NCBI RefSeq assembly: GCF_000281045.1 | Contig: NW_008246112.1 | Coordinates: 200,909 to 248,159 of the forward strand | DNA length: 47,251 bases | Direction of reading: 5' to 3' | DNA from: Saprolegnia diclina VS20 | Taxonomy: Eukaryota > Oomycota > Saprolegniomycetes > Saprolegniales > Saprolegniaceae | Shown: positions 1,951 to 44,193 of the stretch, in pieces | How the letters are laid out: each line of letters starts with the position of its first letter | Numbering within the stretch: position 1 is the first letter of the stretch | Translations under genes and position numbers: made by a program | Notes under the pieces: model-generated | Database searches by the model: none | Told to the model about the DNA's origin: nothing | Seen by the model: only the letters and a program-made list of their open reading frames with translations

Positions 1951-2496
1951 CGAGCGAGGAATTTCTAAATGACTGTGGTGTCACATGGTTGTATACTGGT
2001 ATGTATTATTAATAGAATGTTATCAAATACGGAACTTTTATCTGACTTGTCTTCGTCGTATCCAGGTGGTTGCCGGATACCGAAATTTTGTGCACGCCTA
2101 TCTACGAAGTCGACATCCTGGACGACAGGGTGCCCTGGGAGCCCCAATGGAAAATATAACGTTAACTTGTGGACCACAAATACTATTTCCACTCTTACCA
2201 AAGAGTTCATCTCTCTGCGCTTCCATACCAGAAACCACTGCTATCTAGCTGTATCATGGTTCGCCCTCGCCACGTTTCTCAACGGCTCACGCAGAAATAC
2301 TGGTCGAGTGGGCCAATGCATTCCGTCCCTTACGAGGTGCAAGGGCACGACTAAAAAGCCCATTCTCACTATCTCTGGCGACATCGCGCAACACGCAAAA
2401 TGCAAACTCGCCTTGCACGTCCTGGCGCCACGTCATAACCCTCGGATCCTAATATTGAGTCTCAGAGGTACCGCGCACGCGCCAGCAGTTGCAACG
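1951..2496. other. Intergenic region between two head-to-head LRR copies
   Basis: About 550 bp, AT-richer than the flanks, separates the intact LRR gene (-) from the broken copy (+) and should contain the promoter of each. A CCGGATA motif lies at 2073-2079, one of a set found upstream of several genes in this window. No further gene is supported. Confidence 0.4.
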
Positions 2497-4145: not shown

Positions 4146-4327
4146 AGCATGGCACGCCGTTGAACCGTAACTGACAACATGTAAGAAAGGTCGACAGCTT
4201 CCATTTGTTAAGCGTTTCGTACTTGCACTAGTGGTCTACCTCAACAGCGACAATGGACGGTGTTGACGAGACAAGTAGAGCTGCAGACGCCCTGTCCACG
4301 TGACGGTTACCGTATGTTCTGTGGAAA

Positions 4328-5938
4328 TCACTCCTCAACACGGCCAATTGGCGACTTGCAGCGCAAGCGGTAGAGCGGGTCTGTCTCGGCGTCGCGCAGC
4401 GGCACAACGTCGAGTACTGGCTGCAGACCCAATGTCTCCGCACGAAACACAAGCAAGTCACTCTCGTCCGAGTCGCCTTCCACGATGAGCGTCATCCGCG
4501 TGCAGCGCGCCAAGGCATCGAGGAGACCGTAAATGGCGTCCAGTGGCATCTGTTCCTCGAAGACATGCAACGTCACCTCGGCGGTATTACGCGAGCGCGT
4601 CATCACTTGTGCAAGCGCCGCGGCACTTTGTGAACCAGTTACGTCCAACGTCAGTGCCGTCCCGGAGCGACAAAAAAAGTCGGGCAGCGCGCGAAGCATC
4701 GCATCCGACGAGCCTTCCAAGTAGAAACAGTTCTGGACATTGACGGTTTCGAGCGCCGACGACGTGGCCATGAGCTGCCCGATCGCTGTCATCGTCGCGC
4801 TGTTGACAGTGGCCGACATTACATCCAGATGACGCAATCGCGTCAGCTGCGGGAAGTTGAATAGGACGGCGTGGTGGATCGTCAGGGACGTGAGCTCCGG
4901 GAGACAATCGAGGGTCATGACCGCGTCCGTGACGTCAATGGCCTCACGGATTTGCAGCGTACGCAAGCGCGTTCGCGTCAGCTTAGTCACAAGTCGCATC
5001 ACGTTGACCGCCGATATGGAGGCGACGTCCACGGACGTCAGCTGAACCGGAAGCGGCGGTCCACCTTCCATCAAAAGATGGTCCCAAAGCTCCGACATCA
5101 TGTAGATAGTGATGTTGGCGAGCGTTTTGGATCGCAAAAGCGCATGGGCCAGCGCTTTCAATGCGTGTGGAGTCGCAATCAGCTTGGTGAGACGTAGCGT
5201 TTCCAGCCGGGAATTCGCGAGGGCCGAGCAGAACGCCGTGATATCGTCGTCGAACGGCGCCATGTCAACGACGGCCCTGCTCACGTAGCTGATCGAACAC
5301 AGCTTCGGGCAGCTTTGCAAAAGGTGAGCGATGCCTTGCCACGTCGATCCATCTGCGTCGACGAGGTTGAGCTCGATCATGTTGGCTGCCCAGGCGGCAA
5401 ATTCGTCGACGCTTGAGGCGCTGTAGAACCCGCCGGTGACCTTGGTGTGCGCTGGCAAGACAACGCGGCGCCACACTTGCGGTATCGGAATGAGGTCGTC
5501 GATGGTGATCGCGCTAAAAAGCGGGAGCGCTTTCACGACGAGACCGTAGAGGGCCGGCACGGCTTGGAAGGTGAGCGCAGGCATTCTCATGCCGGTCTGC
5601 TGGACGAGGTTGAACAAGACGGCGACCCGCTCAAAGGCAGCGGGATCGGCCATTGCACAGAGGCGACTCGCGTCGAGCGTGGGCCATACCGCACCGCGCG
5701 AGGGCTCCTCGGCCAAAAGAGCGCGGAGGCTCGTCAAGGCGGGATCCGAGACGACGTCCGTCGGCAGCGCTCGAAGCAAGCGCTCGACGTCATTCACGTC
5801 ACCGAGGCAGCGCACGAGGCTGCGTGCAAGGATGCTCAGGACGAGGCGCCCGGACGGCGTGGCATGGTCGGCGACCTTGGCTCGCTGCGTTACCGGTATC
5901 GCCATCAAGTTCTTGGGTGGACTATGCAACAATGCCAT
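4328..5938 (-). CDS. Diverged F-box-like/LRR protein
   Basis: The open frame could extend to a GTG at 6049, but the first ATG is at 5938 (MALLHSPPKN) and another lies at 5905 (MAIPVTQR). From 5938 the product is 536 residues. It shares the plan of the neighbouring LRR family: an N-terminal helical block (LVLSILARSLVRCLGDV, then LLRALP), a central hydrophobic region, then LRR-like strands such as LETLRLTKLIAT, LTSLTIHHAVLF and LRHLDVMSATVN. Sequence similarity to the other five copies is low, so it is an older relative. No transmembrane segment or signal peptide is evident. It is divergent from the multi-exon LRR gene starting at 6119, sharing a gap of about 180 bp. Molecular function is unknown. 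Confidence 0.75.
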   Translation of the reverse strand: MALLHSPPKNLMAIPVTQRAKVADHATPSGRLVLSILARSLVRCLGDVNDVERLLRALPTDVVSDPALTSLRALLAEEPSRGAVWPTLDASRLCAMADPAAFERVAVLFNLVQQTGMRMPALTFQAVPALYGLVVKALPLFSAITIDDLIPIPQVWRRVVLPAHTKVTGGFYSASSVDEFAAWAANMIELNLVDADGSTWQGIAHLLQSCPKLCSISYVSRAVVDMAPFDDDITAFCSALANSRLETLRLTKLIATPHALKALAHALLRSKTLANITIYMMSELWDHLLMEGGPPLPVQLTSVDVASISAVNVMRLVTKLTRTRLRTLQIREAIDVTDAVMTLDCLPELTSLTIHHAVLFNFPQLTRLRHLDVMSATVNSATMTAIGQLMATSSALETVNVQNCFYLEGSSDAMLRALPDFFCRSGTALTLDVTGSQSAAALAQVMTRSRNTAEVTLHVFEEQMPLDAIYGLLDALARCTRMTLIVEGDSDESDLLVFRAETLGLQPVLDVVPLRDAETDPLYRLRCKSPIGRVEE

Positions 5939-6118
5939 TGGCTGTCTGTCTCTCTGTTCTTGACGGACCCATGAGGTGTCACCATATGATTTTGGCGCAC
6001 GCAACAGAAAGGACGAAGCGCGTGGCCGCGAGGCACGGCGCCACGTCACGGGCTAAGATCGTAACTGCTGATCGTCGTGAAGCGACACCCGTTGTAACGA
6101 CGCCACCCTTGGCTCACA

Positions 6119-7763
6119 ATGGCTGCGCTCACGTTCGAGCCGTCGCACCCCAAGCTAATCGTGCGCCAGCCCAACCTCCGCGGTCTCTCGGATCTAATCA
6201 TCGTAGGAAACGGTCCTCCTGAAGCGCATGACATGTTCTACTTGCGTAGGAAAATGCGTCACGGCTCGTGTGCTTGAACGTCTCGGACAACATCCTCCAA
6301 GACTTGGCCGTCGACTCGACTCTTGTCTATCCTGCGTTGGAGGTCCTCTCTCCAGTATAACGAGTATCTAGTGTGCTTATTATGTGCACATACAAATGTA
6401 GCACCTCAATGGAAGCTGCAATTGGATCTCGGACATGAGCCATTTGCGCTGCTTTGTGTCGCTCGTGCATGTGGATCTCTCGCACAACCAAATTCGCATT
6501 GTGGATGGTCTCGAGAGCCTTCAGCATCTAAAGGTAGACGCTACTTCTAGGTGTTGCTACATTGCATTAGGTTTTGGATCTGAGCCACAATGCGGTACGC
6601 ACCTTTCTCGACGTGCGGTCCATGTCCCTCAACCGCGTACAACGCTGAGAGAGACGCTACCAGATGTGATTAACCATATCTTCTAGTCGCTCCAGAGTCT
6701 CCATCTCCACCACAATCCGATCGCAGATCTCAAAGGCTACCGTGCACGGCTCGCGTCGCTCTTGCCAAGTTTGCTTTTGCTCGACGATGTCCGGTACCCT
6801 CGAAAGCCGAATGCGACATCTATCGACGCGGCAACGTCAACGCCATGTTCGGTCTGTCGTCCCCGCAGCGTGCAGCGAATTCCCGTAGCCTCTTCTAACC
6901 GGGATCGAACCGCCAACCGTTTACACTTGTATTGTAGAGAAAAGGGGCCGCGTCACGGGACCACCAAGCGCTCTCGGATGCGATGCGAAGCAAACCGCGG
7001 GCCCATGCCAGTCACCCGACCACGACCTGTACGGTGCTTGTCCCTAACTTTCATTGCTGTAATGGTAGCACCAGCTAGGTCGAGAGCCCGAGGTTCCGCC
7101 ACCGACTCCTCCCCCGTCCACCTTCTTGTTGAGCTCCACAAAGCCATTGCACCTCCACCGCGCCACGCCACCACTTCAAAATCGAGTTTGAGTTTGATCC
7201 AGCGGGCAACCAAGGACGCTATTCGTGCGATCCCGGTCCGCTCGATAGGTTGATTCAACGCTTGTCTTGATGCAGTGACGTAGACGCCAGAGGACAATGT
7301 GTCGGCAGCGAGCAGAAAGCTGATATTGCAGGATCAAGCGCCGACAACGTGTCCGCCGGCCCTCACCGCTCCCGTGCCGGCCCTCACCGCTCCCGTGCCG
7401 GCTCTCACCGCTCCCGTGCAGGCTCTCATCGCTCCGGTGCAAGCGGCCCCAGTTCAAAAGTGTGTCCCAAGTAGTGTCAGAGATCGGCCGCTCGGGCCAT
7501 TGGAGCAGCTCCTGGACCCGACACGTTCGCTAAACCACGACGATATCATGGCGCTGGTGGCCGTAGCGGCCAACGACGAGCCGTATGAGCCCACGGTGCT
7601 GGAAGAAGTCCTCTTGGGCTTTGAAGCGACGCTCGCGACCTTGCCGACGGTGTGCGATTGCAATGGCTTTGAACGTCGGAACGTCGACGATCCTCGCGCA
7701 GAAATCAACGAGCTGTTGACAAGGGACCGACGGACCAGCGCCCACCGTGCAGCGTACCATTGA
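6119..7763 (+). CDS. Multi-exon leucine-rich-repeat protein with Pro/Ala repeat tail
   Basis: Exons fit at 6119-6202, 6250-6342, 6402-6533, 6571-6636, 6687-7235 and 7284-7763, all joined in phase 0 by GT-AG introns of 37-59 nt. Joined, they give regular LRRs: LVCLNVSDN, then LVHVDLSHNQIRIVDGLESL, then VLDLSHNAV, then LQSLHLHHNPIADLKGY, capped by LPSLLLLDDVRYP. This is the plan of SDS22/LRRC-type scaffold proteins, often cilium or phosphatase associated; the exact role is unknown. The C-terminal part is low complexity with four ALTAPVP-like heptads, then an acidic helical segment. The long exon 5 has two further possible introns (6885-6937, 53 nt; 7029-7068, 40 nt) that together keep the frame, so the protein is 467 or 436 residues. 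LRR exons are secure; the tail is less so. Confidence 0.65.
7359..7442 (+). repeat. Four tandem 21-bp units
   Basis: Four adjacent 21-bp units begin at 7359, 7380, 7401 and 7422 and encode the heptad ALTAPVP, with divergence growing toward the fourth unit. They lie inside the proposed last exon of the LRR gene, and the period is a multiple of three, so copy-number change would keep the frame. Confidence 0.9.
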
Positions 7764-8238
7764 CGTATCTACTACAGCATACCATGGAGACATCGTCTAC
7801 CACGGTGTGGCTCGCCCTGTAGAGCATTTTGCGTCGTTGATTATGGAGTCCAACTGACGTGAAGCATCAAGAACATATTGTCGTATCTAAACAAATAGCA
7901 GCGTGCGCATAGAGTCTATGGAGGCGCTGGACAGATGCGGCAAATGCGTGGAGACCGGTCGACGGTTACTAAATGTATCCATGGATGTCTACCATGCTGA
8001 AGGTTTCTTCTTGTCATGCGCATGATGAACCCATCGGCGAGCTTATGGCGTCTGTGCCCGGGCATTGCCTAACCTAGCTGCTGCTTGCGTGTCGTGTGCT
8101 TGCAGCGTGAGGCCCGAGGAAGCGCGGCGAAGTCCTGGAGCGATCGAGTCATGTCGTGCTCGTCCCGCAGGGCACCGAAGAATAGCGCACGACGACGACT
8201 TATGTTGTTCTATTACCTCGCCTCCACGATATCTCTAC
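7764..8238. other. Gap without recognised gene
   Basis: About 475 bp lie between the end of the LRR gene (+) and the end of the mS23 gene (-), a convergent arrangement. It probably holds both 3' untranslated regions. I see no ORF, RNA gene or repeat I can support. Confidence 0.4.
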
Positions 8239-8751
8239 CTATTCTTCGTGGTGGTATTCCTTCTCCAAGGCCGCAATCTCGGCGGCGTCTTCGAACTCGA
8301 GGCGCATGCCTTCCTTGATGGCACCGGCCTCCTGGTTGGCCCACCGCTCGGTCATCTCGTGCGGCTTGGTGCTCGGGATAAAGGCCTCGCCACGCACTTG
8401 GTAGTACTTTTGCAGGAATCGGTCGCCCTCGACGTGCTCGTACTTCTCCATGAGCATCACAAACGCCTTCTTCTCCGGCACGCCGAGCTCGATGAGCGTG
8501 AGCTGCTCGTCGGCAAACTCGTACGCCGTCTCGTCGTCGGTCGGGAAGCCGCACTTGCGCGCGTAGAGCTCGGCGAGGCGATCCTGCGGGAACTCGAGCT
8601 TGGGCAGCTTGTCGTAGTCCGTCCGGGGCATGGCCGGCGGCGGGAAGCGGTTGACCATCTCGAGCCACTCGGGCGCTTCCATGCCACGGTTGCGCACCAT
8701 GCCCCGCGTGTGCGTGATGACGTTCTTGATGATCTTGCGAGCGCGGCCCAT
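8239..8751 (-). CDS. MRPS23: Mitochondrial small ribosomal subunit protein mS23-like
   Basis: A 170-residue product from ATG 8751 (MGRARKIIKNV). The frame stays open to an upstream ATG at 8811, but that extension (MGCGQWFLLP) looks unlike the family. mS23 (human MRPS23, yeast Rsm25) is a structural protein of the mitochondrial small subunit. The resemblance lies in the N-terminal helix (ITHTRGMVRNRGM), the WLEMVNRFPPPAMPR block matching the family's W-x-V-x-x-x-PP segment, and the following PQDRLAELYARKCGF, equivalent to the EDRIRAKFY region. The C-terminus is helical and acidic. Assignment rests on remembered family pattern, not a search. It shares a 194-bp divergent promoter region with SmD1. 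Confidence 0.65.
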   Translation of the reverse strand: MGRARKIIKNVITHTRGMVRNRGMEAPEWLEMVNRFPPPAMPRTDYDKLPKLEFPQDRLAELYARKCGFPTDDETAYEFADEQLTLIELGVPEKKAFVMLMEKYEHVEGDRFLQKYYQVRGEAFIPSTKPHEMTERWANQEAGAIKEGMRLEFEDAAEIAALEKEYHHEE

Positions 8752-8811
8752 GTCGTCGACTTCCTCCTGCTCTTCCGCGATTGGCAATAAGAACCACTGG
8801 CCGCAACCCAT

Positions 8812-8849
8812 CCGGATAGATTGACCGGATACGCGGCTCGTGTATCCGG
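8812..8849. promoter_or_regulatory. Cluster of three TATCCGG/CCGGATA motifs
   Basis: CCGGATA occurs at 8812-8818 and 8825-8831, and TATCCGG at 8843-8849, in the 194-bp gap between the divergent mS23 and SmD1 starts. The same heptamer recurs upstream of other genes here, so it is a candidate promoter element. Function is inferred from position only. Confidence 0.5.
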
Positions 8850-8945
8850 ATGTCGAAGCCCTCGCTACAAGATCAGCGCCAAGTGCTTGTATCGAGGGCC
8901 ACGGGTTCCATCTTCATCAGTGGTCGAAAGCGCAACACAGGCAGC

Positions 8946-9390
8946 ATGAAGCTCGTCCGGTACGCGGATACGGGGCATGGGCTGGGCGGCGCGAGGGCCG
9001 CCCGCACCCATGGCCGTACCATGCAGGTTGATGCTGATGATCGCGCTATGGCATAGGTTCCTCATGAAGCTCTCGAACGAGACGGTGACCATCGAGCTCA
9101 AGAACGGGACGGTCGTGCATGGCACGGTCACCGGCGTCGACATTAGCATGAACACGCACCTGAAGGCCGTCAAGATGACGGTCAAGGGTAAGAACCCGAC
9201 GTCGCTCGACTCGCTGAGCATCCGTGGCAACAACATCCGCTGCTACATTCTGCCCGACTCGCTCAACCTCGACACACTCCTCATTGACGACACGCCCAAG
9301 CAAAAGGTCAAGGCCACGGGGGCCGGCGCCATGGCCGCCAAGGGCCGCGGCCGAGGCCGTGGGCGCGGTCGTGGGCGCGGTCGCCCGTAA
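8946..9390 (+). CDS. SNRPD1: Small nuclear ribonucleoprotein SmD1
   Basis: Two exons, 8946-8959 (14 nt) and 9057-9390, join across a GT-AG intron of 97 nt to give [19 protein letters not shown], the invariant start of SmD1. The product is 115 residues, close to the human 119. The Sm1 motif ([19 protein letters not shown]), the Sm2 motif ([15 protein letters not shown]) and a C-terminal arginine-glycine tail, the usual target of symmetric arginine methylation and of SMN recognition, are all present. SmD1 is one of the seven proteins of the ring around U1, U2, U4 and U5 snRNAs. The tiny first exon would be missed by ORF-based prediction. A possible SMN homologue lies at the other end of this window. 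Confidence 0.95.
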
Positions 9391-10006
9391 TCGTATGCGC
9401 GACTATGCTCTTCTAATCCATCGTGTTATGTATAAGCGTTGCCATCTCGAGATGCACAACGCGGGATCGAGCCTTTGGGCCATCGTCCCCTGCGTTACGT
9501 AGCGAACAATACCGCGTTGCCACCCGTCGGCGCTCCCTTTCTGCGAGCGTGTGCCAGCTCATGCCCGCTGCTGGATCGCGGTCGTGAGCCCAGCGTGGGG
9601 CCAGGAGGCAACGTCAACACAAGATACCGTACATCGCTAGCCACGTCGCCAGCTCATCCTCCATGGCGCCTTCAGCAATTCCACTGCCATGGACGTGCGA
9701 ATACATGCTCGAGCGCTTGGCGTCCGACCCACGTCCGAGCACCGACCGGTTTGGATCTTGGAAAGGCGCGACGATCGCCATGGTGTCTCTCAAACGCCCA
9801 TTTTGAGATCTGTTTTGAGATTCAGATGCAATTGTACAACGCAGACCCCAATTAGGTACCGTACGAGTGTAGCTGTCGCTGTTCGTGGGCGTTATTATTG
9901 ACCGGACGCCAAGGGACAGCGTGCGGGAGGGACTTCGAACCCCGCTCGACATGCAATTTCGTCGGCGACATATACGTATTTCCACAGTTCCGCCAAATTG
10001 TATCAC
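9391..10006. other. Gap without recognised gene
   Basis: About 615 bp between SmD1 and the next LRR copy. Short open frames exist on both strands but none has a recognisable domain or consistent splice context. It presumably contains the SmD1 3' region and the upstream region of LRR copy 3. Confidence 0.4.
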
Positions 10007-11556
10007 ATGTGGCAGAAACACTCGAATCGGACGCGCGCCAATGGTATCGATCGACGAGACCGCCGGCGCCTTCCCACGAGCTTGTCACGCCTGCCCAGCG
10101 CCGTGGTCTATGCCATTTTGGCGGTCATGGAGGACGGGCGGGACGTCGCCGCCTTTCTTGCAGCGCTGCCGAGCGAGACGCTATCGCCCGAGCTCATTGC
10201 ACTGCGCGACCTCGACGCTGTTGTCGACCTCGCGTACCACTGGCCGGTCGTGCATGTGACCCAGATCCCGGTCCAGTATGCCCGCCTCGGTATGGCTGCA
10301 CTGCCAACGTTCAAGCGTGTCTACGTGGATGCTGGCTTTACCGCCCTCGATTGGCTCGACGCCAAGCTGCCGCCCAAGATGCCCGTGACACTTGTCATCG
10401 ACCAGGCCGTGTCTGGCGCGGCGAGCGCCTTTGCGTACGTCTGGGGCAACCGCATCACGAGTGTCATCGCCAAGGGCCACGAGGTACACCCGGACCCGAT
10501 TCCCGACCTCCTCGGACGCTGCGTCAACGTCCAGTCGGTCAAGATCGCGCACGCTACAATGCCCGTCGATGCTGCGGCGTACGTGGCCGCGATTCCACTG
10601 CAATACTTGCATACACTCGACGTTCATGTCACGGCGTCGGGTGCGCTGGACACGTCAGGTCTCGTGGCCTGGCTACACGGACCCAACGCGACGTCACTCA
10701 CGCTCTCGTGTGACTCGGTGAGCAACCCGACGTCGCTGGTGGCTGCGATCGAAGCGTGCGCGACGCTGTCGTACTTGGACCTCGATGACGCTAGCAACGT
10801 GCAAGACGCCTTGTCGACGTCACCCTTTGTCTTGGAGCACGTTGGTGTGCTTACCCAGAGCCAATGGAGCGATACGTACGCCGACATCCTCACCAAGCTA
10901 CGGCCAGGACACGTGCGCTCTTTTCTGTTCGAGAAGAAGCTCGGGGATCGGCTCGTGCTACCCCACGTCGTCGACGCGCTCGGCGAGTGTCCTCAACTCG
11001 AGGTAGTTGGCTTTATCCGCGTGCACATCCCGCGGATCGTGACGACCGGTGCTCGTCGCTGCTGCGAGATGTCACGTTCAAGCAGTCGACGTTTGAGGAC
11101 CCGAGAGACGTGCTGACGATCGTGCGCTGGCTCTCAACGTCGCGTCATCTCGCGTCGGTTGATTTGGATGGCACGGTGCTCGGCAGAGAAGGCGCCTTGG
11201 AGTTAGCGCGCACGCTGCCGGCGTGGATGCTGCGTGGCCTCGAAACGCTGCAGCTGAGGGGGACGGGGCTCAATGACGAGGATGCGGTCGTCCTTGCGAT
11301 TGCGCTGGCCTCGGGCACGAACCGACGACCGCTGACGATCGACTTGACCGGAAACGAACTGACAATCGCGTCAGCGCCCGTGCTGCTGACGATGCTGGGC
11401 GCAAGTCGAAATGTCACGTTGCGTTTGGACGGGCCGTTCGTGTTGACGGGACAAGACGTCCTTTGCGACCTTGTGCGCGTGCACAGCCTTGACCACTCGG
11501 TGCCAGGCCGGTTCTCATCGCCATCGCACGTGTCGTCACTGTGGCATTCGATCTAG
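10007..11556 (+). pseudogene. F-box-like/LRR copy 3, single frameshift
   Basis: From ATG 10007 the frame encodes an F-box-like head (LPSAVVYAILAVMEDGRDV), the YHWPVVHVTQIP block and most of the LRR body, up to about position 11050 (RIVTTGA). There the frame is lost and homology continues one frame over (LLRDVTFKQSTF to the C-terminus, stop 11554-11556), through LARTLPAWMLRGLETL and the terminal SSPSHVSSLW. Compared with copy 5, about ten bases appear to be missing at the junction. No GT-AG intron restores the frame. Either this is a young pseudogene, since everything else is preserved, or an assembly error. Truncated translation would give a protein of about 370 residues lacking the last repeats. 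It lies in the same orientation as copies 4 and 5. Confidence 0.75.
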
Positions 11557-12210
11557 TAGTCTTTATAATCGAATGTGATTCCTAGGTTAGAGTTAAGGCA
11601 ATTGAGCATTTTGATTTCGGTGGAGATCTTAGTGTTGTAGCAAATTGCTTGATTGTGTGATGCAGTCGAATGCTGCAACGTGGGATGCATCTTGCATGGA
11701 GGCTTGTGCTGCTTGTGCTACAGAATGGTGACACATGTCCGAAATTCCTATCCTGACGTATGCAAATGTCTTTGTGACTCAATCGTGGTCAGTCTTGCAG
11801 CTTTGCTCGGAAAGAAGAGCAACGAGTGCGACTTTCTTCTCCACGGCGTTCTTGCTTTCTCATTGGCAGTTGCTATCACCATGTCGTTCCTAACTTGGCG
11901 ATTATTGTCTCTCGCACGCCCGCAGCTGGTGTCCCCACCGTCCGTCCGTTGACAGAAGCGAATGGCGATCTTTGCGACAAAACATCCGGATGAGATCCTA
12001 TCATTTTGTAACATTCCTTGTACGAGAGTACCAAGGTCTCGCGCTATCGCACAGGGCTCATTTGCTCCACTGTCCAGCACAAACCATTCAGTACGAGGAG
12101 GTACTGTACTAGCATGCAGGGGGAACCTCCGTGGCCGTTGGACAGGCATTTTCGAAGGTTACATGGTATACGTAGTTCGACAGGAAACGTTTGACGGTGC
12201 AATTATTCCG
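11557..12210. other. Gap without recognised gene
   Basis: About 650 bp, AT-rich in its first half, between LRR copies 3 and 4. No gene, RNA or repeat is supported. It is expected to carry the upstream region of copy 4. Confidence 0.4.
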
Positions 12211-13777
12211 ATGCTGGCAACGACCGACGAGACCTCCGGCGAGGCCATCGCGGTGGACCCGCGTCTTTCCGCGAGCTCGCCACGCCTGCCAAGCGTCGTG
12301 GTCTACCTCATTCTGGAGGCCATCGATGCCGGGCGAGACGCTGCCGCTCGAGCTCGCTGCGCTCCGCGACCTCGGCGCCGCTGTCGACCTCGCCGACCAC
12401 TGGCCGGTCGTGCACGTGACCAAGATTCCGATTCAACATGTTCAACTTGCCGTTGCCGCGCTGCCAACCTTTGCCGGTATCTACATTGATGCTGGCTTTA
12501 TGGCGCTGGCGTGGCTGGACGCGACCTTGCCGCCGACGATACCGCTAACACTGGTCCTTGACCCGTCCGAATCTGGTGTACCCGGCGCCATTGCATACAA
12601 CTGGGGCGATCGCATCTCCGAGGTCATTGTCAAGGGCCATGCCGTGGACCCGGACCCGGTCCCCGAATTCCTGTCCCGCTGCGTGAACGTGCAATGTGTG
12701 ACGATCGAGGACGCTGCGACGCCACTCGTCGCCGCAGCATGCTTGGCAGCGTTACCAACCAACCACTTGCATGCGCTCCGAGTCCATGTCGTGTCGCCTG
12801 GTGCGCTTGACGCCGCTGCGATCGTTGCGTGGCTTCATGGACCCTGCGCTGTATGCTTTTCTCTGTCTTGCGAGACCGTGCTGGACCCGACAGCGCTGGC
12901 GATCGCGATTGCATCATGCGAGTCGCTGTCGTCGCTGAGCTTTGAAAACGCCATGGACGTCCAGGACGCCTTGGCGACCTCAGAATACAAGTTGGACCAC
13001 ATTTTGTCGCTCTCGCTGGGTCTCACATCGGGACCGTACGTGAACGTGCTCGCAATTCTGCATCCAAGCGTCGTCGCCCGCATTACACTGGCCAAGACCC
13101 AAGGAGAGGCGTTGGTGCTGCCCTACATCGTCGACGCGCTGGGCGAGTGCACCATGCTCGAGGAGGTTTCGCTTGTCAATGCGCACATTTCACCAATGTC
13201 GACGACAAGGAAGATGGGGCATTGCGTCTGGCTTACGAGTGTTGCGATCAAGTGGTCGACGTTCGCCGCGCTGTGCGACGTGCCCAAACTCATCCAGTGG
13301 TTCTCGACCTCGCGCCAACTCGCGTCAGTCGACTTGACTGGCACCGCGCTCGGCAAGGCAGGCGTCGTCGAGCTGGCGCGGGCGCTCCCTGCGTGGATGG
13401 CGAGAGGCCTCCAGAGTCTCAATCTGGAAGCAATGGGACTTAAAGATGACGATGTGGTCGTCCTTGCGGTCGCGCTTGCGTCGAGCCGCAACTGCCGCCG
13501 GCTGGCGATCAATTTGGCGGGAAATCAACTGACTAACGCGTCGGTGCCGTTGCTATTGACGACGCTGGGGGCATGTCGTGATGTCATATTGCACTTGAGC
13601 GGTCTTTTCGTCGACACTGGTCGCGCCTCGAATGCGCATGACCGGCGTGATTCATATGCGAACGAACGCCAAGCAATCCGAGACCTCATGAAGTTGCACC
13701 AGCTCCAGTACATTGCGTCCAGCACGTTTGCGTCGCCGTCGCGCACCTCATCGCCATGGCACCCCATCTGCTTGTAA
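12211..13777 (+). pseudogene. F-box-like/LRR copy 4, deletion frameshift in head
   Basis: ATG 12211 opens a frame with the family's N-terminal head (LPSVVVYLILEAIDAGRD), which breaks at about 12335. Relative to copy 3, about 35 bases are missing, exactly the stretch encoding AAFLAALP-S. The rest is intact in another frame, from an ATG at 12326 (MPGETLPLELAALRD) to the stop at 13775-13777, so a 483-residue LRR protein without its F-box-like head could still be made. The body has LADHWPVVHVTKIP, LASVDLTGTALGKAG and a C-terminus RTSSPWHPICL. It may therefore be a dying gene or one that has lost its head domain. Same orientation and close spacing to copies 3 and 5. Confidence 0.7.
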
Positions 13778-14060
13778 TTGCATCAATTGCGATTTTCCCT
13801 ACGCTGTACCTCGTCTCTCGAACATGTGCATTATCCAACACGCTGTCGTCATGAGCGATGAACATGAAAATCGTGCGTGCTGGGCCTCGGTTGAGTTCAT
13901 TGTCAAGCCCATGAGCAAGCGCAAGGCAGGGGTATAGTCCGAGGAGCAAGGAGCAAAAGTTACCTCGCGTACTAGTATCCAATTTTGAAAATAATACATT
14001 GCTGGAGGTATTCATTATGACAGTTTTGAGTGGCGCGCTCCGATATTTTGTCTGCCAGTG

Positions 14061-15401
14061 ATGGCCGATGCAACCGAGACCAAGCGGGTTTGTGTGCGCA
14101 AGGCTGTCACACGCTCGCCGAGCCTGCCAAGCGCCGTGGTCTACCTCATTCTTGAAGCGCTCCGCGATGGAAAGAGCGTGACCGCCTTTCTGGCAGCCCT
14201 ACCACCAATGACGCTGCCGCCCGAGCTCATTGCGCTCCGCGACCTCGGCGCTGTCGTCAACCTCGCCCAGCACTGGCCGGTCGCGCAGATCACCGAGATT
14301 CCGCTCCAGTACGCTCGGCTTGGTATGCCAGCGCTACCAGTTTTTGCCGGTGTCTACATTGAATCTGGCTTTACGGCCCTCCATTGGCTCGACGCAACGC
14401 CCAAGAGAGCCGTGACGCTGATCGTGGATCCATCCGTGCCTGGCACGCTCACAACATTTGTGTACAACTGGGGTGATCGCATTACCGCTGTCGTTATCAA
14501 GGGTCACAAGGTCCATCCGGACCCGATCCCGGACATGCTTGTGCGCTGCGTCAACGTCCAGAGTGCGAGCATCGAGGGCGCCGAGACGCAAGCAGCGGCT
14601 GCTGCGTACCTTACGGCGCCATCGAAGCAGCACTTGCGTACGCTCAAGGTGACTGCCAACGCGACGGGCTCGTTGGACACTAGCGCCATCGTCGCCTGGC
14701 TCCAGGGACCCAGTGCAACGTCCCTCGACCTCGCGTGCGCCTCTGTGCGGGATCCGGCGGCGCTGGCCAGCGCGGTGCAAGCATGTGCTACGCTCTCAAC
14801 ATTGCGTCTCGATGGTGTCGTGGACGTTCAAGCCGCCTTGGCGACGGGCAGTTTGCACCACGTCACGCTCCTCTCGTTGCGCTCGTCATCAGGGGAGCAC
14901 GGTATTCCGATCCTCGCCACGTTGGATCGGACCAAGATTCTCTCTTTTACATTCGAAAATACCCATGCGGATGTGCTTCCAGTGGCCAATGCCATTCGCA
15001 CGATGGGGGAGTGCACCGCACTCGAGACTATGACGCTCACGAAATGGCGACTCTCGGCTGTGACGACGACCGGCGCTTGTCCACGGCTCGTGACCGCGAC
15101 GCTGCGTCAACTGACGTGTGCACCGACGAGCGTCTCAAAAATCATCCAGTGGCTCTCGACCTCCCGCCGCCTCACACATGTGGATTTCGCTGGCACCGTG
15201 CTCGGCAACGAAGGCGTCTTGGAGCTGGCGCGGGCGCTGCCTGCGTGGATGATGCGCGGCCTTGAGACGCTCAAACTTGAAGCCACGGGACTCACGAATG
15301 ACGATGCGGTCGTCCTAGCGGTTGATGGGCACGATAAAGTGTTCGTTGAGCTCCTTGCAAATCTTGCGCGCGCTCTAGAGCAACGAGCTTGTCATGGCTA
15401 G
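14061..15401 (+). CDS. F-box-like/LRR copy 5, truncated and chimeric at its 3' end
   Basis: A continuous frame of 446 codons from ATG 14061 (MADATETKRVCVRK). The head (LPSAVVYLILEALRDGKSV), the AQHWPVAQITEIP block and the repeats LETMTLTKWRLS and LETLKLEATGLTNDD follow the family. At about 15321, straight after VVLAV, family homology stops. The last 25 or so residues (DGHDKVFVELLANL and on) are the antisense of a PTPS gene, so roughly 90 residues of normal C-terminus, including the last repeat, are missing. The gene was cut and joined to foreign sequence. Whether a stable protein is made is unknown. Confidence 0.75.
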   Translation: MADATETKRVCVRKAVTRSPSLPSAVVYLILEALRDGKSVTAFLAALPPMTLPPELIALRDLGAVVNLAQHWPVAQITEIPLQYARLGMPALPVFAGVYIESGFTALHWLDATPKRAVTLIVDPSVPGTLTTFVYNWGDRITAVVIKGHKVHPDPIPDMLVRCVNVQSASIEGAETQAAAAAYLTAPSKQHLRTLKVTANATGSLDTSAIVAWLQGPSATSLDLACASVRDPAALASAVQACATLSTLRLDGVVDVQAALATGSLHHVTLLSLRSSSGEHGIPILATLDRTKILSFTFENTHADVLPVANAIRTMGECTALETMTLTKWRLSAVTTTGACPRLVTATLRQLTCAPTSVSKIIQWLSTSRRLTHVDFAGTVLGNEGVLELARALPAWMMRGLETLKLEATGLTNDDAVVLAVDGHDKVFVELLANLARALEQRACHG

Positions 15402-16544: not shown

Positions 16545-16560
16545 TCATTTTCGAATTTGC
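16545..16560 (+). promoter_or_regulatory. Oomycete-type core promoter: Inr plus flanking element
   Basis: TCATTTT at 16545-16551 fits the oomycete initiator consensus YCAYTYY. AATTTGC at 16554-16560 fits the flanking promoter region MWTTTNC immediately downstream. The pair ends 15 bp before the HSP70 ATG, a normal distance for the short leaders of oomycete genes. Confidence 0.6.
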
Positions 16561-16575
16561 TCGCCAAGAATCAAG

Positions 16576-17880
16576 ATGTCTGGTGTCCAAGGTGCTTCCG
16601 TCGGTATCGATCTCGGTACGACCTACTCGTGCGTCGGCGTGTGGCAGAACGACCGCGTCGAGATCATCGCCAACGACCAGGGTAACCGCACGACGCCCTC
16701 GTACGTCGCCTTCACGGACTCGGAGCGCCTCATCGGTGACGCCGCCAAGAACCAGGTGGCCATGAACCCCACCAACACGGTCTTCGACGCCAAGCGCCTC
16801 ATTGGCCGCAAGTTCAACGACCCCGCCACGCAGGCCGACATCAAGCACTGGCCCTTCAAGGTCACGCCCGGCGCCGGCGACAAGCCCCAGATCACGGTCG
16901 AGTTCAAGGGCGAATCCAAGACGTTCCAGCCCGAGGAAATCTCGTCGATGGTGCTCATCAAGATGAAGGAAGTCTCGGAGGCCTTTATCGGCTCGCCCGT
17001 CAACAACGCCGTCATCACAGTCCCGGCCTACTTCAACGACTCGCAGCGCCAGGCCACGAAGGATGCCGGTGCCATTGCCGGCCTCAACGTGCTCCGCATC
17101 ATTAACGAGCCCACGGCCGCCGCCATCGCGTACGGCCTCGACAAGAAGGGCGGTGAGCGCAACGTGCTCATCTTCGATCTCGGCGGTGGTACCTTCGATG
17201 TGTCGCTCTTGACGATCGAGGAAGGCATCTTCGAAGTCAAGGCCACGGCCGGTGATACCCACCTTGGCGGTGAAGATTTTGACAACCGCCTCGTCGACCA
17301 CTTCACGGCCGAGTTCAAGCGCAAGCACCGCAAGGACATGACGTCCAACCAGCGCGCCCTCCGCCGCCTTCGCACGGCTTGCGAGCGCGCCAAGCGTACG
17401 CTCTCGTCGTCGGCCCAGGCCTACATCGAAATTGACTCGCTCTTTGACGGTGTCGACTTCAACTCGACCATCACGCGTGCCCGTTTCGAGGACATGTGCG
17501 GCGACTACTTCCGCAAGACGATGGAGCCCGTCGAGAAGGTCCTCCGCGACTCGAAGCTCTCGAAGAGCCAGGTCCACGAAGTCGTCCTTGTCGGTGGCTC
17601 GACCCGTATCCCCAAGGTCCAGCAGCTGCTCTCGGACTTCTTCAACGGCAAGGAGCCCTGCAAGTCGATCAACCCCGATGAGGCCGTCGCCTTCGGCGCC
17701 ACGGTTCAGGCCGCTATCCTTTCGGGTAACGACTCGTCGGAGAAGCTCCAGGACTTGCTCCTCCTCGATGTCACGCCGCTCTCGCTCGGTTTGGAGACGG
17801 CCGGCGGTGTCATGACGACGCTCATCCAGCGTAACACGACGGTGCCCACGAAGAAGTCGCAGACGTTCTCGACGTACGCC

Positions 17881-31083: not shown

Positions 31084-32136
31084 TTACGCGGCCTTGCGGA
31101 CCGGCGACATGGCAAACGACATGTTGGGGTTGATGTGGCTCTTGATGCCGAGCGCTTCGAGCGCCAAGTGCGCCGCCTTCTGGCCCGAGATCATCATGCC
31201 GCCAAAGGTGGGGCCCATGCGCGGCGCGCCGTCGAGCTCGGCCACTTCCATACCGGCGACAATCATGCCGGGGACGATCTCCTTGGTGCCGGCGACAATC
31301 GCGTCTTCGGCCGCGCCCATGTCGAGCGGGCCCATGCCGGGGATGTTCTCGACCATGCCGATGTTCTGGAGGCGCTTGACGCCCGAGGCGCCCATGGGGC
31401 CGTCGTGGCCGCACGCGCTGATCAAGACCTTGCCTTCCATGACGTTCGGGTCCATGCACGACTGCGTGCCGTGGTTGAGGGTCACGAGCGTCCAGTTGGT
31501 GACGACACCGCCGACGCGACCGTTCTTGATGATGAGATCTTCGATGGCCGTCGCGTTGAAGAGCTTGATGTTGTCGGCCTTGAGCACCTTGGACATGACG
31601 GTCGACGTGAAGAGCGCCGCGTGCTTGATGACGACGTGGTCTTCCTTGACGTCGTACGGGATCTCGAGCTCGTCCAAAAAGTGGTGCGCGGGCTTGCGGA
31701 CAATCATGGACGAGAAGAGCTGGCCGCCGAGCCACGCGCCGCCGCCGGGCGCGACGCTTTGCTCAATGATGGCGACGCGGATGTTTGGGTACTTGGAGAG
31801 TTCGTACGCGGCGCAGAGGCCGGCGGACCCGGCGCCCGCGATGATGACATCCGAGTCCGCAAAGTCGTACATGTCCTTCATGTAACGGGTGGTCATTTCG
31901 CGGGACACCTCCGCCTCCTTGACAGGGCTACGCACATGCGTTAGGTGGGCATCGCTCGATGCGTCGGTCGCCTACGCAAAGGTGTAGCCGTCGAAGGGCG
32001 TCGAACGCGCGTTGTTGGCCTTTTGCCACGCTTCGTCCGGAACCCGTCCATTGCCGGCGCGGACAATCTTGGGCGCATGCGGGCCCACAGTGGACATGCA
32101 GCGAGCAGCGAGCGACGAGCGGGCGAGGGCGAACAT
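31084..32136 (-). CDS. THI4: Thiamin thiazole synthase THI4, suicide (Cys) type
   Basis: Two exons, 31976-32136 and 31084-31927, joined over a 48-nt GT-AG intron, give 334 residues (yeast THI4 is 326). The enzyme makes the thiazole half of thiamin from NAD and glycine. In the yeast type the sulphur is taken from its own cysteine, so each molecule works once. Seen: an N-terminal presequence ([17 protein letters not shown]) suggesting organelle import, the nucleotide-binding GAGSAG at 85-90, and [10 protein letters not shown], whose cysteine at about 211 matches yeast Cys205, the sulphur donor. The C-terminal half has the conserved [15 protein letters not shown] riboswitch lies 56-188 bp upstream of the ATG, so expression is very likely repressed by the pathway end product. 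Confidence 0.95.
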
Positions 32137-32191
32137 GATGATGGTTAGGCTGCTGCCAGGACAAGACACGTATTGAGCTCCAAGTACATCA

Positions 32192-32324
32192 CAGCAGTCC
32201 CTCCGCCGGTTTTACCCGGATCAGGTGAAAAGGGTATGATCTCAGCGACCCGCGGGCTGGGCATGTTCACGGAAGAGGAGGACTCCTCTTCCATGGGCCC
32301 ACCCGCGAGAAGCACCCCTCGCTG
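32192..32324 (-). ncRNA. TPP riboswitch (THI element) upstream of THI4
   Basis: Read on the minus strand, the region has every core element of the thiamin-pyrophosphate aptamer in order. P1 is CAGC (32321-32324) with GCTG (32192-32195). GGGGTGC is the 5' side of P2. GCTGAGA lies at 32240-32246, then ATACCC closing P2 and CACCTGATC. A P4/P5 arm CCGGGTAAAACCGG follows, and GCGGAGGGA at 32198-32206. The P3 arm is extended, as is usual in eukaryotes: CGCGGGTGGGC pairs with GCCCAGCCCGCG (one bulge), enclosing a perfect 9-bp hairpin GGAAGAGGA/TCCTCTTCC. A donor-like GTAGTG after CAG at 32381 and acceptors at 32153 or 32150 would place the whole aptamer in an intron of the 5' leader. GTAAAA at 32215 inside the aptamer is another donor candidate. 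Confidence 0.95.
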
Positions 32325-32928
32325 GTTCAGACAATCGACGACTATCGACTACGCATCGACTAACTAGACTAGAAGCACTACCTGAAAATGGACGTGCGCG
32401 ACGGGCGGCAAATTCTCGAATGCCGACGTCCGCACCTTTTGAAATGCTTGTCGTGGATTGGCCCATCGCTCGAGTATACTCAGTTCCAGTCTAAAAACGT
32501 GTCCCATCGCACCCAGGGAGCTGACTACCTCTGACAACGCATGTTATAGTCGCGCGGCCAGTGCATTTGTGGTCGTTGGGGGTTAAACAACCTTTGACAA
32601 TGCATACAGTGAAACGACTGGTGGGGAATAAAAACGACGCACGCAATTTAAATCCAACATTGATAGTTGCATACAATTACCTTGCACGTTGTATGTTGCG
32701 GGCGTATTTTTATTCGAGTACCGAGGCACAGCGCATTAAAATACATCGAAACCAATGTTGAAGTTGAAGAAGTTGGATGAACCAACGCGAAGATTTCGCG
32801 CTCCGGAGTTGCTGCCTCTCTGGAAGACGACGGTAGTCCAACGTGGCAGGCGGCCAGCCGTGACAGAGCCGCTCGTCCAAGGCACGAGAACCTTATTATT
32901 ATCTATCAGGTGGTACTATAGCAGTGTG
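32325..32928. other. THI4 upstream region and gap to MFS gene
   Basis: About 600 bp. The part nearest THI4 holds the probable leader: an initiator-like CCATTTT just before the possible donor at 32381, and a CCAAT pentamer near 32455 (minus strand). The rest, beyond about 32500, is AT-rich and probably the 3' region of the MFS gene. No other gene is supported. Confidence 0.4.
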
Positions 32929-39171: not shown

Positions 39172-40170
39172 TCAACTTGGTCTTCTTCTTGTCACCGCCC
39201 CGTTGCCCTCGTTGCCGCCTTGTTTGCTGCCGTCGCCGCCTCCGCCACGACGACTGCTCTTCCAGTTCTTCTTGACGGCAATCGCCTTCTGCTTGGCGCT
39301 CGAACTCGGGCAGTCCCGCAATTTGTGCTTCTTGCTGCCGCAGTGCCAGCACGGACGTTCCGTGCCATCGTTCTTGCGTTCTTGTCGCACTGGCGGCTTG
39401 TTGTCCTTCTGCTTCAACTTGCGCTTCTTCTTCTTGCGCACACCTTGCTGCTCCTTGTGCGACGGTTTCTCGTCTTCGCCGGACGACTCCTTGTCACGAA
39501 GACGCTTCGTCTTGGGGCTCCACGACTTGTAAAAAAATGCCCGCTTGAGGATGATCTTCTCAAGGTGCTGAAGGCCAGCTTGATTGTTGACAGCCAGCTT
39601 CTCTTCGAGCAGCTGCATCACGTCCGTCTCAAGCTCTTGAGGACGGAGCCGTTGAATGAGCGCCTTGAAGATATTGGCCTTGAGCTTGCTGTTCTGCAGC
39701 TTGTCACTGAGGCCATTGTCTTCAATTGCTTGGTCGGCCTTGAAAAGGAAATTGCTGACCCGCGCGCGAACGTCTTCTTCGCCGTAATCGAGCTCGAGCG
39801 AGGTGAAGATCTTGTCGTACGTGAGCACCGCTTGGTTGGCCCGCGTGTCGATGATGGCGTTGATTTGTTCCCAAAGCTTCTCTTCGGGCACGTTCTGCAG
39901 GTTGTAGTCGTCCCAGAGGTCCCACGAGGTCTTCATCAGGAACTCGAGATACCCCACCGGTGTGAACGAGTCACGGACCGGAACACACGTCGCTGCGTAA
40001 CTCCGGTTGGTTTGCTGACACTCGCGCCGCATGGAGGTCTCGTATTCGAGGCGCGCCCGCTTCCACGCGACCACGTCACGACGGGCGATGCTCTTGAACT
40101 CCGGGTGCACAAGCTGCGAGAGCACGACGACGCCACTCATCGCCATCGCCGCTTGTCCTGGAGCCGCCAT
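39172..40170 (-). CDS. Retrotransposon Gag polyprotein
   Basis: From ATG 40170 (MAAPGQAAMAMSG) the product is 332 residues. It has a helical Gag-like region (SWDLWDDYNL, then ALIQRLRPQELE), a strongly basic lysine-rich segment (VRKKKKRKLKQKD) and a CCHC zinc knuckle of spacing C-x2-C-x4-H-x4-C (CWHCGSKKHKLRDC), the nucleic-acid-binding motif of LTR-retrotransposon nucleocapsids. The frame is intact although the rest of the element is gone. The frame is open upstream to a GTG inside the direct repeat. The closest superfamily (Copia or Gypsy) cannot be decided without the polymerase. Confidence 0.75.
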   Translation of the reverse strand: MAAPGQAAMAMSGVVVLSQLVHPEFKSIARRDVVAWKRARLEYETSMRRECQQTNRSYAATCVPVRDSFTPVGYLEFLMKTSWDLWDDYNLQNVPEEKLWEQINAIIDTRANQAVLTYDKIFTSLELDYGEEDVRARVSNFLFKADQAIEDNGLSDKLQNSKLKANIFKALIQRLRPQELETDVMQLLEEKLAVNNQAGLQHLEKIILKRAFFYKSWSPKTKRLRDKESSGEDEKPSHKEQQGVRKKKKRKLKQKDNKPPVRQERKNDGTERPCWHCGSKKHKLRDCPSSSAKQKAIAVKKNWKSSRRGGGGDGSKQGGNEGNGAVTRRRPS

Positions 40171-41389: not shown

Positions 41390-44193
41390 ATGGCCACGTG
41401 CCCCGGGACTCCGCGGCCGTCGGCGCAAGAGGTCCAGGACTACATTGACAAGCGTGACATGGTCTTTGGTCTGGGCGGCAACGCCGAGCTCTCGCCGCGC
41501 CCGTCACCTCGCAACCCGTCGCGAGGCGTCCCGACGCCGGACCGCACGTACCGGTCACTGTTCCAGCAGCCGGCGATTGACGTGCAGCTTGCGCACACCG
41601 AGCACGATTGGTACGACTTTCTCTTCCAGCCCACCAAGCTTCTCGACCACACGCGGGCGCTACTGGCGGACCCGACGTCGACGCCGACGGCCCATGACGT
41701 GCTCACGGAGTTGCTCAAGAAGGTCAAGAACCCGGCAGCCGCGTACAGCAACACCAACCCGACCGAGCCGAGCGCGCGCCACAACACGCTGCTGTGCCTT
41801 GCCGCGCTCGTCGTGCTCCAGCTCAAGTTTGACCTCACCGACATTGAAGCCACGGTGCCGACGCAGCTGCAGAGCCTCCTGCTCGACGGTCTCGTCGAGT
41901 ACGCGACCAACCCGCGCGTGCTGCGCCTCCACGAAGTCGAGCACATTAGCGTCGACGAAGCATCCGTGCTGCGTGCGCGCTGGCAGCTGCGCATTGCCGT
42001 CAAGAAGATGCACATCTCGCCGCTCACGCTCGTGGGCAAGCTGCCGCTGAGCGACAACACCAAGCCGCCACCAGACGAGGTCGAGCAGCTCAATGGCATC
42101 TCGCTGCCGTCCATGCAACACATTCTCGACGACCTCGACCGACTCCTCCCGTCGATGGCGTCGCAGCCGCTCCTGCAACACCTTGCCTTCAATGACATGG
42201 GCGTCTACCACTTTCACAAAAAGCAGTTTGCATCCGCGCTGCAGTGCTTTACGAAGGCGCGCGAGACGACGACCGAGGTACGAGCTTGCCACGTCATTTT
42301 CTCACAAAAGTTCGTGGCAGGCGGTCGCACCAGCGCTGGCCGGGTACATCCACGCGTGCGAAGCCGTCTTGGGCACCAATGGTACGTAGCCCACAGCGTT
42401 TATAGCCTAAGAACCAATCTTATGGCCTTTAGTCACCGCCACCGACCATCCATTCCAAGGCGCGTGGGACCGCAATGACTATAGCACGTTGCTCACGTTG
42501 CTGCAAGCCGAGACGCACAAGAAGGCGACGAACGAGCCCGTCGCGCTCTCGCCAACGTACAGTACCGCCCTTGTAGACTGCATCTATACGCTGCCGTATA
42601 GACTCCAAAGCTTCTTGGAAGCGCAAGTGCTGCAATCGCTGCCTCAGAGCCGCGACGCCGAGCTCGAGATGCTGCAGCAAGTCTACCTCGTTCTTCTCGT
42701 CCATCGGGTTTGCTGCATTCCGGCATCGCTCTGTGCATGAACGTATCCTAGGCGCTGCGGTCGTCGATCCTATCGGCTGGGAAAGCTGCCGTGTGCCAGT
42801 ACCACCGAGTGCCCGGTCTTGGCAAGCACCGCACGTTTCTCGTCGCCTACATCCAGAGCGTCCTGGCGGCGTGCCCGGACGCTGCCTTGAAAAAGCTTTT
42901 GGACGTGGTCGCGACAGAGGCGCCGGCGCCGGAGGACGAGCGTCCAAGCACCAAGCGACAGCGCGTAGCGTATGCAGCGCTGGCGGCACCCCAAGACGCT
43001 GGGAGTGCCGTGCACCAGCTATGGGCGCGTGGCGCATACACCGCTTTGCGCGATCCCCAGAGCGAACGTACATCTATTCCTTTACTGGCCTCTGGCTCAT
43101 ACAAACGCGTACATTAGACACCTCGCCGGTCGTGGCGGCGGTCGCAGCTCTCATGGAGTACACGTCGCAGCCGCCGGGTGACTTTGGCGTCAAGCGCGCG
43201 ATCGCGCTGCTCGAAGGCGTCGTGGCCGCGATGAAAGAGTCCAAGCAATCGACCGCGGTGGCGGAACTTCCGATTCCCGCACTTGACGCGCTCATTTCGC
43301 TCTGCGCCGGTCTCTTGCAGCGTGCGTATGCACTCAACCTCGTACGTGCGCGTCCATCGTCGCGCACTCTGGGCTCAGAGATGGTGCGTAGTGTGAGTAC
43401 CGTATTTCGTACGACCTCGTGCCATACAGCGACCTCGCCATCATGCTTGCGTTTGGCCCGAACGATGCGGGCGGCGCGATGGACCCGGTCCAGTCGATGA
43501 AGCTCGCGCAAAGCGACGTTGTCAAGCTGCACCAGCTCGTGCTCAACACGCTTCTCTCGCGGAGTCCGCGGGAGCCGCGCTGGCACGTGGCGATGGCCGA
43601 TGTGTGTGTCAACCCCATCGTGCTCCAAAAGCTGTCGTCGGTCGGCGGTCCGCTTTCGCATTGAGTCACTCGATCGCTCATGGTTGGCTTAGACTACAAG
43701 ACGGCGCTGCGTCACTACTTGGCGGCGGCGTCGCTGGCCACCAACTTTTTCGCGTCCGGTACGGTCGACCTCATTGACCAGAGCTCGCTCGTGCGCTTGA
43801 GCCACTGCCTCGTCAAGCTCGGCGCGCACGTGCCCGCGGCTGTGCTCTACCAGTGTTTCCAGCACGACGAGGTCGTGTACGGGCTGCGGATGCTGCAGCT
43901 CTCGCCGCAGACGCACGACGCAACGTTCTTTCAGTACTTTTGGGAGCTCGCGTTTCTCGAGATGCTCGTGCACGTGCACGCGACGGCCAAGCAAGGCACA
44001 CCGAGGTAGGCAGATGGGGTATATCTATGTATCAAGTTGATATTGTAGTCATGTGCAGCTGCTCACGCAGCTCCTTCAGTGCCCCGAGCTCAACGCGTCC
44101 AACCCCGGGAGCAGCAAGGACGACATGAAGCACCGCATCTTGCGCAGCTACTTTCGCGAACTCTGCCGCGTGTACCTCGTGCAAGACCTTTAA
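41390..44193 (+). CDS. INTS8: Integrator complex subunit 8
   Basis: Eight exons (41390-42277, 42321-42381, 42433-42707, 42752-43067, 43118-43341, 43392-43647, 43693-44005, 44049-44193), all GT-AG introns of 43-51 nt, give 825 residues. INTS8 is a TPR-type scaffold of Integrator, the complex that cleaves snRNA 3' ends and attenuates transcription; in animals it binds PP2A. The match is best at both ends: the early block EHDWYDFLFQPTKLLDH, and the C-terminal YKTALRHYLAAASLATNFF, LSHCLVKLGAHVPAAVLYQC, FFQYFWELAFLEMLVHVH and LLQCPELNASNPGSSKDDM. The middle is weakly conserved, with proline-rich loops. Human INTS8 is 995 residues. All splice joints keep phase. Confidence 0.88.

Follow-up and report, generated by a model that had tools for sequence, protein, structure and literature searches.

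A TPP riboswitch aptamer upstream of THI4 in the oomycete Saprolegnia diclina, with a candidate role in leader splicing

The aptamer and its gene

The leader of THI4 in Saprolegnia carries a genuine TPP riboswitch aptamer, in front of the correct gene and on the correct strand. In an Rfam scan of the window (the whole 47,251-base stretch of DNA analysed here), the covariance model of the TPP riboswitch aptamer, RF00059, matched the minus strand at 32329-32180 with 56.6 bits and an E value of 1.5e-8, exceeding the family's gathering score of 54.3 bits and spanning positions 1-105 of the 105-position model without being cut off. No other Rfam family reached its gathering score within the window, and the same aptamer was recovered at E 4.0e-9, far beyond chance, in a search of the whole 54.15-Mb genome, which is held in 169 contigs. 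A TPP riboswitch before THI4 had been proposed by the initial annotation from conserved blocks of sequence, and the scan bears this proposal out.

Measured from P1 to P1, as given by the core pairs, the isolated fold and the alignment, the aptamer occupies 32324-32192 on the minus strand, exactly the ends at which it had been placed, and the five conserved blocks are all present in the order named, both as letters and in the RF00059 alignment. Its parts are P1 (32324-32320/32196-32192), P2 (32319-32316/32234-32231), the base of P3 (32313-32312/32246-32245) with an extended arm in between, P4 (32225-32223/32202-32200), and P5 (32219-32216/32209-32206), which encloses loop L5 (32215-32210). All 18 of the 18 listed core pairs are standard and the ligand-contact blocks are all intact. 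Folded in isolation, the aptamer adopts the P1-P5 architecture at -69.2 kcal/mol (z -3.74), a value equalled by 1 of 200 shuffled sequences. P3 is in this fold a helix of 13 bp with a 1-nt bulge, capped by a 12-bp apical hairpin; the extended arm described earlier stands, and is somewhat longer than the 11 bp and nested 9 bp first given.

The gene downstream was identified from a 270-amino acid ORF at 31896-31084 on the minus strand, which matches the THI4 (thiamine thiazole synthase) family PF01946 at E 6.7e-103 and aligns from end to end, at 100% identity, with a 334-amino acid protein of Saprolegnia diclina VS20 (P0001), so that the earlier description of an oomycete-like genome was right. 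When the 334-amino acid protein is read against the DNA, its start codon lies at 32136 and its coding sequence is interrupted by a 48-nt intron (31975-31928), giving a coding region of 31084-32136 in two exons (32136-31976 and 31927-31084). The aptamer lies upstream of this gene on the same strand, with 55 nt separating its 3' end (32192) from the start codon. THI4 has one strong match in the genome; seven others, four of them barely above the cut-off, score 24-28 bits over short stretches of the profile.

Other features of the window can be noted in passing. An MFS transporter ORF (PF07690) at 34019-33078 precedes THI4 in the same orientation, and RF00059 gives no separate match for it. Both strands of 442-15401 carry several long ORFs whose proteins are similar by eye and form a local gene family, of which one ORF has a weak LRR_6 match and two others have no Pfam match. 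A 332-amino acid ORF at 39172-40170 on the minus strand, also lacking a Pfam match, contains towards its end a stretch that by eye looks like a CCHC zinc knuckle and recalls a retroelement gag protein.

TPP aptamers in the genome and in other oomycetes

Across the whole genome RF00059 has three matches, namely the THI4 aptamer and a tandem pair that precedes the sole NMT1/THI5 match of the genome (PF09084, with an ORF at 5.9e-66). The pair lies on contig C14 of the genome (G000) at 43199-43333 (aptamer A, E 4.7e-9) and 43340-43479 (aptamer B, E 1.3e-9), corresponding to positions 4700-4834 and 4841-4980 of the extracted locus L004, where strong candidate donors at 4652 and 5029 flank the two. 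No fourth match was found in the genome at E values up to 10, with 49 of 838 first-look candidates scored. Aligned identities are 104/135 between NMT1 aptamers A and B, 88/135 between THI4 and A, and 97/140 between THI4 and B. One compensatory change is found in P1, where an A-U pair in THI4 and aptamer B is a U-A pair in aptamer A, and a G-A mismatch closes off one end of this helix in aptamer A, leaving 17 of 18 listed pairs standard there, compared with 18 of 18 in B and in THI4. The P3 arms differ in sequence among the three aptamers, and folding predicts a long helix in each. In the alignment the UAAU motif of L5, described as conserved in PMC5882874, is absent from all three; the loop reads GUAAAA in the THI4 aptamer and UUCGUA in aptamers A and B of NMT1. 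UAAU is a consensus feature, written in upper case in the Rfam consensus; the Rfam cut-off does not depend on it, and all three aptamers pass.

Oomycete riboswitches of this kind have been reported before. Of the 17 oomycete genomes considered by Mukherjee et al. 2018, 15 had TPP riboswitches, associated with NMT1, THI4 and transporters among others (PMC5882874), McRose et al. 2014 named Phytophthora riboswitches (PMC4260697), and Donovan et al. 2018 called oomycete riboswitches probable (PMC5997356). The THI4 riboswitch is therefore an instance of a kind already known since 2018; the genome shares with the reported cases the aptamer family, the genes that carry it and the tandem NMT1 pair of Saprolegnia. 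The word diclina is absent from the main text of PMC5882874, and no experimental test of any oomycete TPP riboswitch was found in the paper listings and passages searched, mostly from sources available without subscription. A riboswitch at a sodium-symporter transporter is described as widespread in oomycetes (PMC5882874); the genome has one such (SSF) match, and its 3384-base locus holds no TPP match at E up to 5, the lone Rfam match there being a sub-threshold snoRNA.

Candidate transcript start and upstream AUGs

A 16-nt oomycete promoter block, INR+FPR (YCAYTYY, a 2-nt gap, then MWTTTNC), occurs in 8-15% of genes in several oomycetes including Saprolegnia (PMC3599244). A similar block, GCATTCG-AG-AATTTGC, is found at 32408-32423 on the minus strand upstream of the THI4 aptamer, and another, GCACTTT-TG-AATTTGC, at L004 4621-4636 upstream of the NMT1 pair; both have the full FPR and the published spacing, with two mismatches to the INR in THI4 and one in NMT1. 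Within 257 kb (20 regions, the window and L004, both strands), CAYTNNNNAATTTGC occurs four times: one copy each belongs to the THI4, NMT1 and HSP70 leaders, and the fourth is in L019. The HSP70 example, at window positions 16546-16576 on the plus strand, stands 30 nt ahead of the start codon of that gene.

Looser versions of the promoter pattern were set aside as evidence. The 257 kb contained 6 and 11 such matches, with 1 and 3 of these near ORF starts (at most 250 bp before the ATG, for ORFs with 200 codons or more) against 0.4 and 0.7 expected by position, and they are thus only weakly enriched before ORFs. THI4 and NMT1 are themselves missing from this count because their start codons are further away or lie behind introns. 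Given the INR mismatches and the little enrichment of the looser patterns, a start of the THI4 pre-mRNA near A32421 is one that we infer from the motif.

The unspliced THI4 leader contains four upstream AUGs. A uORF of 4 amino acids (MRSR, 32342-32356) falls between the candidate donor and the aptamer, and one of 49 amino acids (32294-32145) begins in P3, traverses the aptamer core and ends 8 nt ahead of the THI4 start; the latter would be present only if the leader intron were retained. Splicing from 32381 to either 32153 or 32150 would remove all four AUGs, and in the NMT1 leader a splice from 4652 to 5088 would remove 10 of 10. The uORFs that begin in P3 of the THI4 aptamer and in P3 of NMT1 aptamer A (from L004 4735) read the core in the same frame, with the shared peptide AEIIPF-S/T-PDP..TGGGTA.

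Candidate splice sites of the leader

The initial annotation pointed out a GT at 32381, two AGs (ending at 32153 and at 32150) and the GTAAAA at 32215. All are there as letters, and their quality was judged against 35 introns inferred from 20 regions of 10 kb plus the window in a search limited to 42-80 nt. This reference is small, and a branch-point pattern and the model's own weight matrices had a part in the choice of its introns; a re-selection on coding sequence only gave 42 introns, some of them visibly misassigned. The candidate 5' splice site CAG/GTAGTG (32380-32381, minus strand) falls at the 0.23 quantile of the 35 introns and the 88th percentile of all GT dinucleotides, and is outscored by a neighbouring GT at 32393 (0.29 quantile). 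The candidate 3' splice sites (32150-32154, minus strand) stand at the 0.00 quantile for the AG ending at 32153 and 0.09 for that at 32150. At position -3 the THI4 acceptor has C, whereas T occupies that position in 86% of the 35 introns (T in 28 and C in 6 of the 42 introns of the coding-only selection), and inspection by eye of the stretch shortly upstream of the acceptor found no YTNAY branch point, only CTCAAT. The candidate intron, at 229 or 232 nt, is also much longer than the reference introns, which have a median of 48 nt and a range of 43-79 nt. A leader intron of about 230 nt around the aptamer, as first suggested, is plausible given the start indicated by the INR+FPR-like block and the removal of every upstream AUG that its splicing would bring, but the low scores leave the splice sites in themselves unpersuasive.

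The candidate donors of the NMT1 leader are stronger, with 4652 at the 0.71 quantile (98.7th percentile of all GT) and 5029, GTACGT, at the 0.77 quantile (99.4th percentile); its acceptors at 5088 and 5014 each stand at the 0.09 quantile of the 35 introns.

Folding of the THI4 leader

The folding calculations take no account of ligand, tertiary contacts or co-transcriptional folding, and therefore neither prove nor exclude a mechanism of the fungal type. The unspliced leader is predicted to fold at -111.3 kcal/mol (z -3.19). In the free leader the aptamer pairs have a mean probability of 0.05, and forcing them costs 11.8 kcal/mol. As evidence of an anti-aptamer leader these values were set aside, with equal or lower aptamer probabilities in 42 of 200 random leaders and equal or higher costs in 16 of 200. 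When the aptamer is forced, the mean unpaired value falls slightly at the donor, from 0.44 to 0.35, and rises at the acceptor, from 0.22 to 0.40.

The 3' strand of P1 is complementary to the THI4 acceptor, with 36 of 2000 windows as good when the last 40 nt are considered and 47 of 2000 over the whole stretch to the start codon; for NMT1 aptamer B the corresponding counts were 252 and 793 of 2000. If this strand pairs with the acceptor, TPP would open the acceptor, which is the wrong direction for repression, and the pairing, which is not significant once the many tests of complementarity are taken into account, was treated as a counter-observation and not as support. An antisense match in THI4 between UCAGGU at the donor and ACCUGA in P4 of the aptamer was likewise discarded, since windows as good numbered 1454 of 2000 for the best contiguous helix and 584 of 1000 by duplex energy, and here too the sign is wrong. 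The long-distance pairing that defines Type II riboswitches, in which a segment of the aptamer pairs with an element near the distal donor (PMC5882874), was sought in THI4 and no unusual complement was found between the leader and either the core (1454 of 2000 windows as good) or the 5' part of the aptamer (1088 of 2000). In these calculations, folding of the THI4 leader yields no clean, correctly signed switch.

How TPP may control THI4

In Neurospora, TPP aptamers in leader introns that bear uORFs control splicing, and the same has been inferred for oomycete NMT1 and THI4 (PMC5882874, section 7). By analogy with these fungi and from the logic of the uORFs, a splicing mechanism at THI4 is likely, and we give the model as a whole, in which an aptamer-bearing leader intron is removed at low TPP and retained at high TPP, a probability of roughly 0.6. 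The pre-mRNA would begin near 32421. At low TPP an intron of 229 or 232 nt, from 32381 to 32153 or 32150, would be removed together with the entire aptamer, and the spliced leader, short and free of AUGs ahead of the THI4 start, would allow the enzyme to be made. At high TPP the ligand-bound aptamer would lower the efficiency of the leader splice, and the retained leader would keep its four upstream AUGs, including that of the 49-amino acid uORF, such that translation of THI4 would drop. TPP binding, the splice sites, the direction of the switch and the translational block are what we infer for THI4. The splicing model is favoured because the only strong THI4 and the only NMT1/THI5 of the genome carry all three aptamers, because an INR+FPR-like block is found at the published 2-nt spacing, because AUG removal is complete in both leaders, and because of the Neurospora precedent. 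It is weakened by the low site scores, the C at -3, the lack of a YTNAY sequence, an intron far above the 48-nt median, the low probability and high cost of the aptamer pairs in the calculated leader, and the wrongly signed folding of the acceptor.

The weakness of the leader splice sites for this genome is also an argument for a mechanism with no splicing at all, in which the aptamer would stay in the mRNA leader and the TPP-bound structure, together with the uORFs, would block scanning or initiation. Such an arrangement would recall the Type IV riboswitches, which have no leader splice sites (PMC5882874), and it draws further on the four upstream AUGs and the stable fold of the unspliced leader; however, the uORFs would then burden THI4 translation even at low TPP, a candidate donor and acceptors do exist whose use would clear every upstream AUG, and THI4 is not a single-exon gene here. 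We consider it possible, if unlikely.

It is improbable that L5 supplies an alternative donor, its GTAAAA at 32215 defining an intron of 63-66 nt that TPP would hide or expose. An intron of this size fits the 43-79 nt range of the reference, and L5 differs between the THI4 and NMT1 aptamers, but the donor is weak (0.14 quantile of the 35 introns, 80th percentile of all GT) and its use would still leave the uORFs in the message. The earlier suggestion that TPP binding could hide this site fares poorly in the folding, where the forced aptamer leaves L5 more unpaired (0.45 to 0.67; tertiary docking of L5 is outside the model), and if TPP hid it, the long productive splice would gain, the opposite of what feedback requires. 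Less probable still is a relic that is recognisable and has lost TPP binding or control of THI4, for although the UAAU motif reported to be conserved (PMC5882874) is missing from L5 and folding shows no clean switch, the core pairs and every ligand-contact block are intact and the sole THI4 and sole NMT1 genes both bear aptamers.

Among known architectures, the Type I arrangement has the aptamer inside a 5'-UTR intron whose acceptor directly precedes the coding exon, and two alternative donors flanking a short uORF (PMC5882874). The THI4 leader has weak candidate sites for such an intron, uORFs, and candidate second donors that are weak. It would resemble the Type I NMT1 gene of Neurospora crassa in having an aptamer in a candidate intron, uORFs in the retained part and candidate alternative donors, and differs in lacking a convincing second donor; unlike in the Type II gene NCU01977 of N. 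crassa, complementarity to the core is not unusual in the THI4 leader, and the NMT1 leader may have such a complement. A parallel exists for THI4 itself. In its orthologue thiA of Aspergillus oryzae, from another lineage, thiamin reportedly affects the splicing of a leader intron that contains the aptamer, with experimental support; the case described here comes from sequence analysis.

The tandem NMT1 leader

Twenty-two nucleotides past the NMT1 donor at 4652, GUAGGAAGGGUA (L004 4674-4685) is able to form 12 bp with UACCCUUUCUAC, which stands at 4924-4935 in the core of aptamer B; one of the pairs is G-U. For complementarity of the leader to this core, 18 of 2000 genome windows were as good (31 of 1000 for the duplex energy of the whole leader), which comes to about 0.05 after correction for five tests, further complementarity tests having also been made. 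Complementarity of the leader to aptamer A is ordinary (757 of 2000 windows; 327 of 1000 by duplex energy). Ensemble folding did not single out the leader as an anti-aptamer toward B, random leaders giving an equal or lower probability in 93 of 200 cases and an equal or higher cost in 46 of 200. The leader raises the probability of aptamer A from 0.32 to 0.72, and the donor at 5029 stays shut on forced folding, with an unpaired value of 0.20 when free and 0.23 with both aptamers formed.

One conceivable, though rather unlikely, reading of this leader is a splicing switch with two sensors. At low TPP, GUAGGAAGGGUA would act as an anti-aptamer by pairing with the core of B and would bring the distal donor 4652 towards the acceptor at 5088, and the resulting splice would take out the two aptamers together with every uORF; TPP would break the pairing, the donor at 5029 would be used, and the aptamers and uORFs would be kept. 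A leader with two introns and an acceptor at 5014 is a possible alternative. Tandem TPP riboswitches, with two aptamers in series, are also found in bacteria, where they are not known to act by splicing; the NMT1 leader shares the series of two, while the THI4 aptamer is single.

Implications for thiamin synthesis

The two aptamers of Saprolegnia NMT1 were placed in 5'-UTR introns by Mukherjee et al., who could not infer how the pair works, and two TPP aptamers on one eukaryotic leader thus stood unexplained in 2018 (PMC5882874). The tandem pair is for this reason a better target for follow-up than THI4, and the two-sensor switch, if true, would answer the question that the paper left. For the genome as a whole, the picture is one of three TPP aptamers placed before the genes for the thiazole and pyrimidine halves of thiamin. 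If the switch works as it does in fungi, thiamin would shut down its own synthesis through RNA in this water mould.
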